This document shows, one piece after another, positions 43,256 to 49,978 of a stretch of 64,000 nucleotides of DNA. Under the pieces are notes generated by a model. The model did no database searches, was not told the DNA's origin, and saw only the letters and a list, made by a program, of their open reading frames with translations. Every line of letters begins with the position of its first letter. The stretch's first letter is position 1. The stretch covers positions 507,472 to 571,471 of the forward strand of contig NW_006767444.1 of NCBI RefSeq assembly GCF_000264995.1, written 5' to 3'. The DNA comes from Punctularia strigosozonata HHB-11173 SS5. Lineage: Eukaryota; Basidiomycota; Agaricomycetes; Corticiales; Punctulariaceae. Both the position numbers and the translations under genes were made by a program.

Positions 43256-45455
43256 ATGGCCACCAACCATCCGTACAACCTGCGAGCAAGGAAGCCGCAC
43301 GCGGAGCAAAAGACCACTACACGCACTCGGGTGGCTCAGGTTGGACAACGGAGCCCTTCGATTACTCGGGATGCAAGAACGCCTCCGGCTTGCTCCACTG
43401 CGATTATCCGCCTGGGCAGCGCCCTCGTCTCCAATTTTGATCTTGCAATGAGGAACTTGAAGGAGGTGCCGAACATGATCGATGCTGCCAACGGGCAACC
43501 CGCATCCGTCGAATTTGCGTCGCGGACCCTGACCCAATCTATCGAAGTGATTAACGCGGCCTGTGCTGGCCACCCATTCCATAGATTGACGGGTTCGGCG
43601 AGCACTCAGTGCGTCGCTCGCTAATTTTGTCCTTCGTCTGTAAACTGACTTCGTATCGTCTTCCAGATTGTCAGACGTCCCCGGAAGAAAACGTCGCCGT
43701 TCGCTCTCCCACGTCACCCCAGCGTCTCAGTGCCATTGCGAAACATGCGCGTGTCTTCTTATTGATGTCGAACCGATCCCTACCAAACGGCGCCGACTGA
43801 ATCAGAGATCAACTATCGACATCGCAAGAGCGGCGAAGGATCGTGTTTCTCGGCTGCTGGTGCAAGAGAACCTCCTCAAACTCCATCGGCAGAGGAATTA
43901 TATGGCACCTATCAACCTTCTCCCAGACGCCCTCCTTCGTCGCATATTCCTCCTTGTACGAAACCCGGAGTATATACACTGGATCAAGGTCTCTCAAGTC
44001 TGCTATCACTGGCGCGTAACGGCCCTCTCCGACCATACCCTCTGGTCTCGCTTGATCCTCTCTCAACCCGCCGCATCCCTAGAATTCATGCGCCGCGCAC
44101 ATTTTACACCCCTGCACCTCTATGTCCCCGATGAATGGAGATCACGTAAAGCGCTCGCCGTAGCGAAGACAGCGCTGCTTGAAGCGCTCGAAAAAGGCGT
44201 ACATGGTTCTCCTCCCCGCTTGGCAAGCGTCCGTGTCGATGGGCGCACGTCCGAATCGGACCAGCTCTGCCGGCTGGTTTCTCAACATGCCTCGGAGCTG
44301 CTATCATATGACGTATCCTGGCCCTCAGTCGCCCTTCTACAGGTGATCCTCCCCAAACTCAAGGTTCTGAAAGTGTCCGCAGCGCCCTCCTTGAGTTGGG
44401 ATTCGGAGCTTATGAGGAGTCTGTCAAATCTCCGCGTACTCGTAATCGAAGTCGACATATACAAAGTCCCCATCTCTGGCGACCTGGAAGACGTTGTCGC
44501 CGTCCTCGAGCGCAACCAACAGTTAGAGCATCTGGATCTGTGTCGCACCCTCCCTCCATGGAAGGAGGTCCCCGCCTCGCAAACATCCGAATCCCCTATC
44601 ACCCTACCCCACCTGAGATCCTTAAGCATCTTCGAGTACGATGTCAGATCTGTAGTTTTCCTCCTCCGCCGTTTACAGCTGCCTCAAACCTGCAGGGCCT
44701 CTCTCCAGATCGTAGGGACGGAAGGCGGGTCCGTTGCTGCGATTCCTACCGCTGACGATATCCTTCATCTGTGGCGTATTGTCTTCCCCGTCGGGCAACG
44801 GTACAGGAAGATGTACCTGACTTTCCCCGAGTCCCTGCACAAACCGCATCCTTTCGCGCTCGAGCTGGAGGTAACCTTTCGGAGGAATCAATTCACGAAA
44901 CATACCCTCATAAGCATACCGCACCCCGAGGGTCCGAGCATCAGGGATCGCCTAGCGCAGTTCCAGGAAGCCTTCGCGCCCGTGAAAGTGGACATACTCT
45001 CGTTGTCGATCGGATTCCACCTGGATCGGCGGTTCCTCGAATGGTTAGGCGCCGTCAGGAAGATGAGGCACGTTCGTACTCTCATCCTGCCGCATCAGCG
45101 ATGGCCCCGGTCTCTGGCCACGTTCGCAACGTTCTTTCGAAACCTCACGAAGGAGCGGCGCTACTTTCCCAACCTAAATACGATCCTCCTTCAAGGCGTT
45201 GACTTTGGCGATGACCCCTCGAGCCTTTCTCCCGCACAGAAAGCGAAAGAAATAGAGATAGAGGTGAAGCCGTTCGTCGCATTATTGACCGAGCGCGCCG
45301 CAGGAAATGGCGGCGCCCTGAAAGAGTTACGGTTGAGCTCCTTCCGGAAGAATGAGGTGTTTCGGGAGGAGTGGTTGGATATCTTGAAGGCGGGGTTGCC
45401 AGGCGTCGACATACAGTTTCGGTGGTATGACCCTGCTTGTTATTATCTCTGGTAA
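43256..45455 (+). CDS. F-box-like protein with N-terminal PYNLR and CxxCxC motifs, copy 1, 713 aa
   Basis: F-box proteins recruit targets to SCF ubiquitin ligases. Two exons: 43256-43608 and 43667-45455, with a 58 bp intron. Exon 1 begins MATNHPYNLRARKPH and ends in a helical stretch (LAMRNLKEVPNMIDAANG). Exon 2 starts LSDVPGRKRRR, then a Cys cluster CHCETCAC, a basic patch TKRRRLN and a helix ending RQRN. The F-box follows: PINLLPDALLRRIFLLVRN, VSQVCYHWRVTALSDHTLW. The remaining 450 or so residues form a leucine-rich array (LKVLKVSAAPSL, LEHLDLCRTLP, LPHLRSLSIFE, NLNTILLQGVDF), presumably the target-binding solenoid. It ends FRWYDPACYYLW. The next gene is its tandem paralogue. The substrate is unknown. 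Confidence 0.83.
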
Positions 45456-45657
45456 TCGCAAGGTTGTACGCGCAAAAGTATCAATTGCAACAATACTGTC
45501 ATGAAAGCCGGCTGTAGATACGCCCTGAGAACAATAGCGCGATCGGAGCACTAGACAATAGCGCAACGAATTCAGCACTCGATAGTCCGTTTATAAAATG
45601 CCAATGTCTGACTGGCCACATCGCATTTCCCCTTTCATCACCGCACATTACGCACCT
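45456..45657. promoter_or_regulatory. Spacer with the TATA box of F-box-like copy 2 (45592-45598)
   Basis: TTATAAAATG at 45591-45600 supplies a TATA box 60 bp before the ATG at 45658. Because it overlaps the upstream in-frame ATG at 45598, that ATG cannot be the normal start. This decides the start in favour of 45658. Confidence 0.6.
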
Positions 45658-47807
45658 ATGAACGGCAAGCAACCATATAATTTACGACCGCGCACAGGAG
45701 GCGCCGTCCAATCTAGCAACATAACGAGGAGGAATGATACACGATCCAGGCGTCAAGTTGTACAAGCTGGAAAGAAGGCCGTGAACCCAACGCCGAAGAG
45801 AAAGCGTCATCCCATCAGCAAAGCAAGGGCTCAGAACGACGGATTGGGAGAGCAGGAGGTGGATGATCCGTGCGTGCTACCTACAGTGATTGCGATTCCC
45901 TGCAGCTGATGTCAAAGGGGATGCTGCAAAGTGTTCACGTTGGGTGTAAACGTCGCGCGCCTACATCACGCCACCCACTCACCGAACCGCACTGCACATC
46001 GTGTCGATGCACCACGCTAGGAGCGTACAATGGCTATGGTCCCGCCACCAAACGCCCCCGATACAATACAGCCAGACTTGAGCAACCGAGCGCTGAGGTC
46101 GCACACTGGCAAGACTTTGCGGCTCAATCTGCACGTTTGGCCCTAGACCTTCTGAACTCGTTACGACAAAGGAACATGACGCTTCCTATCAATCGTCTTC
46201 CATCCGAAGTTCTCAGCGCTATCTTCATCGTCGTGCGAAATAATCACCAGTACGATCCTATGGAACCGCCAGACCGGCACTGGATCCGCGTCACTCATGT
46301 CTCATGTCACTGGCGCGCCGTGGCCCTCGGCTGCCGTGTTCTCTGGTCCGAAGTGAATCTCAAATTAAAAACCAGTTGGAAGGACTACGGCGGTACCATG
46401 GCAATGATGCGTCGGGCAGAATCAGCACCTCTACGACTTTATATCAATTACGAACAACCACTGGGCCCCGGTAACATGGCTCTGAAGATTTGGCCGCAAC
46501 CATCGAAAGGCTCGACGACGGATGCATGCAGCGTGACTCCTCGCGTGGAGAGTCTGATCATGCATGGTTACGAGAAAAAAAAGGAGGACTTGCGTCGCGC
46601 CATGACCCTTTATCTCCCACATCTGCGCTCCTGTCGGATGTCCGACCCACCGGACACGCTCGCCGAGTTCGACTGGTCAAAACTTCGATCGCTGGCGTAC
46701 GCGAAGAGTAGCATCGACTGGAGCTCGGCCATGCTGCAGTCACCTCGCGATCTGCGAAGTCTTGAGGTGGAGATGGACCTGCAAGACGTCTGGGTCGACA
46801 TTCCGACCAACTACGCTGGAAATGTCATCGGTGACCTGGGGCAAATCGCCAACCTCCTCGCCCGACATCCGCAGTTGCAGGAGCTTGCACTTTTGGACTC
46901 GCTTCCCTCCTGGACCACTGAGGACGATATACGACAAGTGCACGCGATAGTGTACCCGCGCATGGCACATCTCGACATCGCCCATCAGGACTTCCGCGCA
47001 GCGAGATTTGTCCTTCGCCTGCTCCGCCTGCCGGTCACCTGTCGAGTTGGTCTAGCCCTTAGACCGTCGATACTCCACAAAGATGTCGAGATACCACAGC
47101 CTGCGGATTGGCTCCAGCTCTGGCAGCTCGTCTTCGAGCGCGAGATCTCTCTTGACCCGGCCGCCGCGCCGCCTCGATACGCTGTGATGAAGATAGCCTG
47201 CCGCGAGGAGTCGAAAGGGATCTGGGACGTCGAGTTGCGGGCGTTCATGTCGCAAGGTGCCGCGAGCGCGCATTCGGAGCTCCTGTTGCCAAGCATGCCC
47301 GCAAAAGATGTGGCGGCGCACCTTGCCTGGATCCGGGATCCGTTCGCGGCGCTGTCTGTCTCCACCCTCGTCGTCGATTTGCATACCGAAAGACGGAATA
47401 CCGAATGGCTGGCTGTCACCAAGAAAATGACGAGCGTGCATACGGTACGCATCAACGCGATCGGCTGGGACTTATCGGAGATGGTAGCGTTTTTGGCTCC
47501 TGTCGAAGGACATGCCGATTCCGTGCTTCCGAACATGCATACGTTAGTGCTGACGGATGGTGATATCCACACGCGGCCGGGAGATATGCGCGCGTTTCCA
47601 GCGACGGAAGCTAGAGAGGAGATCAAAGCATTCGGCGCGGCCTTGAGGGATCGTGTTGTCGATGGTCGGTTGAGGGAGTTGCATATCAATTGTGTGATGC
47701 ATGCGAGGCTCGCCGAAGGCTGGCTAACAGCATTGGAAACAGCACTGCCTGGTCTGAAGATTAACTGGGTATGGGGAAGAGAGGAGGTTGAGGTGCTACA
47801 ACGTTGA
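45658..47807 (+). CDS. F-box-like protein with N-terminal PYNLR and CxxCxC motifs, copy 2, 695 aa
   Basis: Tandem paralogue of the gene at 43256-45455 with the same two-exon structure: 45658-45869 and 45932-47807, split at a comparable place. Exon 1 begins MNGKQPYNLRPRTGG. Exon 2 starts VHVGCKRRAPTS, with the Cys cluster HCTSCRC, the patch TKRPRYN and LRQRNMTLP. The F-box follows: INRLPSEVLSAIFIVVRN and VTHVSCHWRAVALGCRVLW. The leucine-rich part includes LYLPHLRSCRMSD, LRSLEVEMDL, LQELALLDSLPSW and LRELHINCVMHARLAEGW. The C-terminus is INWVWGREEVEVLQR. Sequence outside the motifs is strongly diverged, which suggests an old duplication with changed target specificity. Confidence 0.83.
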
Positions 47808-48582: not shown

Positions 48583-49978
48583 TCATGAAGGCCCGAACGG
48601 TAGTCCAGCTTCCTCCCTAGCAGCGCCATACATCGCACTCACATCAGCCTGTTCTCCGTGCTTTTCGAGAGCAGCACTAAGATGCCTGACGCGCATGAGA
48701 GAAAACGTCAGCAATGGACCTTTTATCAGACCGGTCACGACGAAGGGCTGACCTCTGAGCGGCTTCGAGGATAGGGATCCTAGCACCGGATTCTTTCGCA
48801 AGACTGACGAAGGCGTAAGATCCTCAACCCATGAGGTCGCAATTAACATGACACGCACGATAAGCAATGGTTGATGTCCTTTAGCGCGTTCGGCGCGCTG
48901 AATCCGGGCTTTTCGCCTATGAAGACAGCGAGAGTTGGGGTCAGACGAGCCTTCAAGGTAGCCTGGCACGCAAAATCCACGAACCATCCTTAGCGACCCA
49001 CTGACCCGCCTGCATCTTCTTAGAATACAGCTCGTACGGCGTGCCCGCGAACATGGCCTGCACGAAGTCGTGGATCCTTTCGGGCCCTAAACCCGACTTC
49101 TCCGCAAAGGTGAGCGCCTCCGCGAGCGACTCGTTCACGGTCATGACGAATATGTTGCCCTTCGCAGGAACGCTTCTCATCAGTCGAATGCGGCGATGGA
49201 TAGGGCTGACCCGGGCATTACCGTGATCTTCATTAACCCAGCGTTTCCGACTAGCCGATCTGGGTCAGTACACGCGCAGTGCCGGATGCATGAGGGGGCT
49301 TACCATCTTCACCCATCTCTATCACTTTCCTACCCATGACGCCCTCTGTATATGGCTTGATCTTGGCGACGTACTCCGGGGGACCGGCCAGAGCAAAGAT
49401 GAGCTTCGCGGCTGTATAAAGCTGGTCAGAGGAGTTGATTTGCGATTTTTGACATCAAGGACGCACCGGCGGCGGCTGGAGGCGCACCGAATACCGGCGC
49501 CGCAACGAACCCGGCTCGCCGTTTCGCGAGCAAGGCTTGGATCGACCGCGAGGTGTCCGGATGAATCGTGGAGCAGTCGCAAAAGACCTTGCCCTGTAGC
49601 CCATCGTTCCGAGCGATATCTTCGTACGCGGAAGTGACCGTAGCGTCGTTCGTGAGGCAGGTGAAGACGATGTCAGAGGAAGATACCAAGCTCGAGAGCG
49701 ACGGGGCCGGTTTAGCGCCCGCGGCCACGATCGCGTCCGTTCGCGAGGTAGTCCTATGGCCGTGTCAAGTGAGCGATGTTCTCAACAACACCGTCGGAGT
49801 ACGTACCCACCGGTTGTAGACGAGGAGAGGGGTCGCTTTGGTAGCCGCGAGGTGCTTTTGGAGGTTCATGGCCATTCCTTCGCCTTCAGAACGACTTGGT
49901 ATCAGAGCCGCTCACTACATCGACGCGATGATATTGCTCACCCATGTTACCAAAACCGTACCACCCGATGGTCGACAT
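48583..49978 (-). CDS. 3-hydroxyisobutyrate dehydrogenase-like NAD(P)-dependent oxidoreductase, copy B
   Basis: Inverted paralogue of the gene at 40737-42118 with matching intron positions. It begins MSTIGWYGFGNMG (GxGxxG) at 49978. Then come MAMNLQKHLAATKATPLLVY, AAGAKPAPSLSSLVSSSDIV, FCDCSTIHPDTSRSIQ, GFVAAPVFGAPPAAAG, LIFALAGPPEYVAKIKPY, GVMGRKVIEMGEDG, LVGNAGLMKIT (catalytic Lys) and GNIFVMTVNESLAEALTFAE. Further exons give INHCLSLAKESGARIPILEA and HLSAALEKHGEQADVSAMYG, ending EEAGLPFGPS. The C-terminal block is almost identical to copy A, whereas the middle is more diverged. No break is seen. Substrate unknown, possibly a branched-chain amino-acid intermediate. Confidence 0.9.

Follow-up and report, generated by a model that had tools for sequence, protein, structure and literature searches.

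Two head-to-tail neighbours, A and B, lie within a 64,000-nucleotide stretch of the Punctularia strigosozonata HHB-11173 SS5 genome (NW_006767444.1, positions 507,472 to 571,471; part of contig 12, hereafter the window). Each was read as a two-exon gene for an F-box/leucine-rich repeat (LRR) protein, with products of 713 and 695 residues, respectively, and with splice sites picked by eye from the sequence alone (Table 1). The subject here is the region ahead of the F-box, which in both proteins shows PYNLRxR, a phase-2 intron with donor GTGCGT, KRR[RA], HCxxCxC, TKRxRxN and RQRN in one order. These motifs fall at residues 6-13 (PYNLRARK), 126 (KRRR), 141 (HCETCAC), 157 (TKRRRLN) and 192 (RQRN) in A, and at residues 6-13 (PYNLRPRT), 77 (KRRA), 91 (HCTSCRC), 110 (TKRPRYN) and 149 (RQRN) in B. 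A first-pass annotation of the window had described the ordered motifs and the shared intron after PYNLR, and all were found in their places and in that order. The search string it had proposed for the cysteines, C.C..C.C, fits A only (CHCETCAC), the family motif being HCxxCxC.

Genome searches, all of this one genome (33.6 Mb in 32 contigs), identified a third paralogue, C, on the minus strand of contig 1 (C1:1635308-1637014). It is the best non-self match for exon 2 of both A (E=4e-58) and B (E=1e-53), above the match of A and B to each other. The frame upstream of its exon 2 opens MSERHYNLRSRTG, and a phase-2 intron with donor GTGCGT is followed by KRRRS, YCITCQC, GKRRRC and RHRN, and then by the F-box. 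With order, intron phase and donor all repeated in C, coincidental resemblance between two adjacent genes does not account for the layout. The first-pass annotation had staked its proposal on the existence of another F-box protein with these motifs, and C is one. When 20 F-box/LRR relatives were placed in a tree from the columns beginning at A exon-2 residue 70, which leaves out the N-terminal motifs, A, B and C formed a single deep clade (98/99) with ∼32% identity and terminal branches 1.1-1.5 changes per column long; the three are old duplicates. Exon 1 of A and C has a common 45-residue segment, identical at 16 of 45 positions, which B lacks, and C exon 1 used as a genome query matched itself and A only (E=4e-6). 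This segment (window 43433-43567; L007:3259-3633, minus strand) gave no Pfam match above cut-off and is presumably helical.

In the genome search, A, B (Table 1) and C (34.7 bits) all score above the 24.3-bit cut-off of the F-box-like family PF12937, and on the exon-2 proteins A (22.4 bits) and B (21.6 bits) come just below it, with C at 30.7 bits. The F-box of A and B is genuine, if weak. A profile built from the 20 relatives matches SKP2 (E=7e-9) as well as FBXL17 and FBXL5, with matches starting approximately at the F-box; these proteins resemble the trio in having an F-box followed by LRR-like alpha/beta repeats. An AlphaFold2 model of A exon 2 (mean predicted local distance difference test score, pLDDT, of 77) consists of a low-confidence start, a long helix, the F-box and then LRR-like repeats of alternating helices and strands. 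The low-confidence portion covers the first 45 residues (pLDDT <50 at 1-22 and 25-42), including KRRR, HCETCAC and TKRRRLN; such low confidence ahead of the F-box helix is as in disordered regions, and we count it in favor of the chromatin-tether reading developed below. The best Foldseek matches are mostly LRR proteins, including the rice D3 F-box protein, at template-modeling scores of ∼0.3 or less, and no LRR family of Pfam matched the exon-2 proteins of A and B. The trio thus has the F-box of FBXL proteins in all three members and, judged from the A exon-2 model and Foldseek, their C-terminal LRR-type repeats; from the F-box, binding to Skp1 and cullin would be expected. Neither HCxxCxC nor exon 1 of any of the three is covered by a Pfam domain above cut-off. 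The earlier statement that the layout matches no named domain therefore stands, and the layout recurs in the deeply diverged C.

The most conserved part of exon 1 is YNLR-R, which is identical in all three proteins (YNLRARK in A, YNLRPRT in B and YNLRSRT in C), while the remainder of the exon can barely be aligned. Five of the six motif columns are invariant, as compared to 2 of 53 elsewhere in exon 1 (Fisher p=2e-5) and 109 of 603 elsewhere in the protein (p=0.001); by domain, the counts are 19/55 for the F-box and 75/430 for the LRR. Each of the invariant residues (Y, N, L, R and the second R) is encoded by at least two codons across A, B and C, and composition shuffles placed a 4-mer common to all three inside the first 15 residues in none of 200000 trials. 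Among the F-box loci examined, most of which span 1.5 kb upstream of the match (L066-L069 less), YNLRxR occurs only in A, B and C. A full-text search with the letters of B led to papers on the nucleosome, which are cited here from excerpts. The chromatin-binding sequence of prototype foamy virus Gag (PMC9040877, PMC12125541, PMC6021111, PMC10450195) contains YNLRPRT (PMC10450195), of which Y537, L539 and R540 are contact residues: Tyr and Leu rest against H2A/H2B, while Arg inserts into a pocket formed by H2A E61, D90 and E92 (PMC9040877). An Arg-to-Gln exchange nearly abolishes nucleosome binding by Gag, and Tyr-to-Gln lowers it ∼5-fold (PMC12125541). Lamin A binds the nucleosome through YNLRS in a 2.3-Å structure, with contacts by Y579-N-L-R582-S583, and the printed peptide continues as YNLRSRT (PMC12527912). 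A related sequence in carrot NMCP1, the nuclear-localization signal (NLS)-linked RYNLRR, acts in localization to the nuclear periphery (PMC3935212).

The heptapeptide of B equals the Gag peptide letter for letter over seven consecutive residues, that of C equals the YNLRSRT of the lamin A peptide, and A and B keep the Y, N, L and R of lamin A; the Tyr, Leu and Arg contacts expected of an arginine-anchor motif are thus present within one short stretch in each of the trio. The partner surface was read by eye from the fungus's own histones at locus L078, which is partly masked, and the comparison covers the H2A/H2B contacts. The H2A includes VLEYLAAEILE and RNDEELNKLL, and the H2B includes YIYK, an intron and VLKQVHPDTG, as well as GELAKHAISEG. 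The named contact residues are all present, and with vertebrate numbering transferred we take them to be E56, Y57, A60, E61, E64, D90, E91 and E92 of H2A and V41, Q44, V45, H106 and E110 of H2B. The suggestion in the first-pass annotation that PYNLR is a short docking motif fits these observations, as the sequence looks like one, and can be sharpened by naming the H2A-H2B acidic patch as its candidate partner.

A classical NLS comprises one or two clusters of the form K-K/R-x-K/R. In each of A, B and C, basic residues outnumber acidic ones ahead of the F-box (K+R of 29, 26 and 34 vs D+E of 14, 11 and 22), and clusters of this type occur in all three, as KRRR twice in A and C and as KRRA plus KRPR in B, where KRRA fits the consensus in part. 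KRRR and TKRxRxN look like classical NLSs. Considered together, these features make it somewhat probable, in our judgment, that A, B and C are substrate receptors of Skp1-cullin-F-box (SCF) ligases kept on chromatin by their N-terminus. In such a mechanism, the KRRR and TKRxRxN patches would bring the protein into the nucleus, where the N-terminal YNLRxR would sit in the H2A-H2B acidic patch with Arg, R10 in A and B and R9 in C, as the anchor and Tyr and Leu alongside; this step is suggested because the contact residues are identical to those of the lamin A and Gag peptides and because this fungus's H2A and H2B carry the partner residues. A linker of ∼150-200 residues with HCxxCxC and the long helix would then lead to the F-box, which would bind Skp1, and the LRR domain would pick a chromatin-bound or histone-like substrate, so that F-box and LRR together might direct ubiquitylation of something nearby. 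The broader proposal, which we hold tentatively and put at slightly under even, is that YNLRxR is a convergent acidic-patch docking motif with separate origins in animal lamin A, in a retroviral Gag and probably in plant NMCP1, as well as in these fungal F-box proteins, where it would hold SCF ligases on chromatin in an undescribed F-box architecture. Among the titles and abstract openings listed from the open literature, no F-box protein using a YNLR acidic-patch motif was found, and those on basidiomycete F-box families held nothing on the PYNLR/HCxxCxC/F-box layout.

Several observations weigh against nucleosome docking. A has Ala at the position of the lamin A Ser and Gag Pro. Part of the Gag peptide reaches histone H3 (PMC9040877, excerpt), and no counterpart of this part was seen in A, B or C. 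A PDB search with B exon 1, covering chains of at least 20 residues only, matched no solved chain. YNLR is four residues long, and at average residue frequencies tens of occurrences are expected by chance per proteome. As a cruder control, shuffling invariance flags over the whole alignment produced a comparable run somewhere among the first 60 columns 715 times out of 20000, so that the observed one is only mildly unusual by this measure. Across the genome, PYNLR[PATS]R gave 5 matches vs 3 for the reversed pattern; a general spread of PYNLR in the genome was rejected on these counts, and of the three matches beyond the window, L001 and L002 showed no obvious gene by eye. Finally, [YF]NLR precedes the match in 2 of 41 F-box loci besides those of the window, namely C and L066. 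The YNLRIA at L066 is read in a different frame from the F-box, which starts 230 bases further downstream, lacks the second Arg and basic surroundings, and was judged a chance occurrence; YNLR can therefore occur by chance in such stretches. As a separate observation, a basic, nuclear-looking open frame at L003 (C6:1872251, minus strand) has PYNLRTRR ahead of three mutually similar TRSNKRRHSP..PKRLRHID-type repeats, and a simple pattern search found no F-box motif in this stretch.

The cysteine motif has a different distribution from YNLRxR. In 16 F-box reading frames, the trio included, [HY]CxxCxC stands 56-69 residues N-terminal to the F-box core; these are counted as frames, part of them retrieved incompletely, and are not all demonstrated whole genes. 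The N-terminal layout is therefore not one conserved module, as the first-pass annotation had claimed, but two layers, a wider-family HCxxCxC and a YNLRxR seen, among the loci examined, in the trio alone, and a single new domain running from PYNLR to the F-box was rejected for the same difference. Genome-wide, HCxxCxC has 132 matches vs 90 for the reversed pattern, and among the 100 of these 132 that were listed, 13 lie by an F-box place on the same strand and none by one on the opposite strand, an association that is partly circular because many F-box places came from queries containing HCxxCxC. Six F-box genes clustered on contig 7, at 1337-1367 kb, each carry the motif or a close form two times. 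It occurs twice in L066, L068 and L069 and twice in L029, where the first copy has CC for HC; the first copy of L053 lies in a separate frame piece, and the first form in L067 is GCHSCSC. The paired motifs are 48-59 residues apart in the four genes that have both in one frame and were measured, and may constitute a paired metal site. In a model of L066 (mean pLDDT of 68), the stretch between the two copies is a helix. Two other F-box relatives, L013 (C15:737320) and L016 (C8:1008400), have an HCxxCxC that is followed by an in-frame stop or read in a different frame, reflecting either an intron or decay.

HCxxCxC possibly serves metal or thiol chemistry; metal binding or redox sensing had been the suggestion of the first-pass annotation. 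We consider it unlikely that the motif is the working part of the N-terminus, binding metal or reacting with oxidants to switch SCF receptors, with YNLR and the basic patches secondary. The recurrence of C-x2-C-x-C at a similar distance from the F-box core in the 16 frames, and its duplication in the tandem cluster, argue for this possibility; the invariance among the 16 frames, however, follows from their having been chosen for the motif. Outside the trio, the rows with the motif belong to two separate clades, and mapping the label on the tree takes 4 changes, so the history of HCxxCxC includes loss or repeated gain. L018 and L034, within a motif-bearing clade, show no HCxxCxC in the 900 bases upstream of the F-box, the motif regions are mostly at pLDDT <50 in the structure models, and Pfam gave no known Cys/His domain above cut-off over the motif (Fer4_22 in L066, at E=0.93, is far below cut-off). 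YNLR would also be left unexplained.

Docking of YNLRxR to a partner other than the nucleosome, such as the nuclear envelope, an importin, a kinase or phosphatase, or the substrate itself, seems to us rather improbable. Short motifs are ambiguous, and the targeting of NMCP1 to the nuclear periphery by its RYNLRR is a case in point, but that case is also compatible with nucleosome binding, and the Tyr, Leu and Arg that make contact in two solved nucleosome structures are all kept in the trio, in a fungus whose histones present the H2A/H2B partner surface. Still less probable is a chromatin-directed defense or quality-control receptor, acting for example against transposon or selfish-element proteins. 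Such a role would explain rapid divergence and expansion, and the genome does hold a large, strongly diverged F-box-like set in tandem clusters (at least 172 merged candidates, including some below the Pfam cut-off and part of the exon-2 search rows); capture of transposase helix-turn-helix sequences by F-box genes has also been reported (PMC12062965, excerpt). That the N-terminal letters are an ancestral residue kept without function, as the whole-alignment shuffle might allow, is very unlikely given that, of the other 53 columns aligned in exon 1, only 2 show no variation, and that every invariant motif residue has undergone silent codon changes.

Lamin A is a filament protein, and the trio has the motif at the N-terminus of a fungal F-box/LRR protein; fungi are not known to possess lamins. 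No sign of shared ancestry between Gag and the trio was found, and none was sought. Plant NMCP1 likewise has YNLR near an NLS and differs in being a coiled-coil, lamina-like protein with the motif in its tail (PMC3935212, excerpt). KDM2A/KDM2B (FBXL11/FBXL10) are F-box/LRR proteins that act on chromatin. They use CXXC zinc finger, PHD and JmjC domains. Pfam detected none of these in A, B or C, with only F-box families above or near cut-off, and classification as a KDM2-type chromatin F-box protein was rejected.

In basidiomycete genomes F-box genes form large families, and substrates are known for few of them. If the chromatin-tether reading is correct, three such proteins would acquire a location, and the search for their substrates would narrow to chromatin. 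It would also add another case to a short motif known structurally from two unrelated proteins, and YNLR in the right context could then serve to find nucleosome binders by sequence. A fungus would, in that event, be using YNLRxR to keep its SCF ubiquitin ligases at chromatin.

Table 1. Features of genes A and B in the window (position 1 is the first letter of the 64,000-nucleotide stretch).
Feature	Position	Strand	Basis
A exon 1 (117 codons + 2 nt)	43256..43608	+	Open frame from ATG; donor GTGCGT at 43609
A YNLRAR, residues 7-12, candidate nucleosome acidic-patch anchor	43274..43291	+	YNLR-R invariant in A, B, C; literature
A exon-1 segment common to C, residues 60-104, not in B	43433..43567	+	16/45 identical with C; genome search
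A intron, phase 2	43609..43666	+	GTGCGT...CAG
A exon 2: KRRR, HCETCAC, TKRRRLN, F-box, LRR, stop	43667..45455	+	Open frame; AlphaFold2 model
A KRRR, candidate NLS first half	43689..43700	+	Sequence comparison of A, B, C
A HCETCAC	43734..43754	+	Family motif HCxxCxC in alignment
A TKRRRLN, candidate NLS second half	43782..43802	+	Sequence comparison
A RQRN, inside long helix leading into F-box	43887..43898	+	Alignment; AlphaFold2 model
A F-box-like domain	43911..44060	+	PF12937, 28.1 bits
B exon 1 (70 codons + 2 nt)	45658..45869	+	Open frame
B YNLRPR, residues 7-12, candidate acidic-patch anchor; YNLRPRT as in foamy-virus Gag peptide	45676..45693	+	Sequence comparison; literature
B intron, phase 2	45870..45931	+	GTGCGT...AAG
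B exon 2: KRRA, HCTSCRC, TKRPRYN, F-box, LRR, stop	45932..47807	+	Open frame
B KRRA	45948..45959	+	Sequence comparison
B HCTSCRC	45990..46010	+	Alignment
B TKRPRYN, candidate NLS	46047..46067	+	Sequence comparison
B RQRN	46164..46175	+	Alignment
B F-box-like domain	46188..46361	+	PF12937, 24.8 bits

Elsewhere in the window, an open frame on the minus strand (48953-49264) looks, by appearance only, like an NAD-binding hydroxyacid dehydrogenase.

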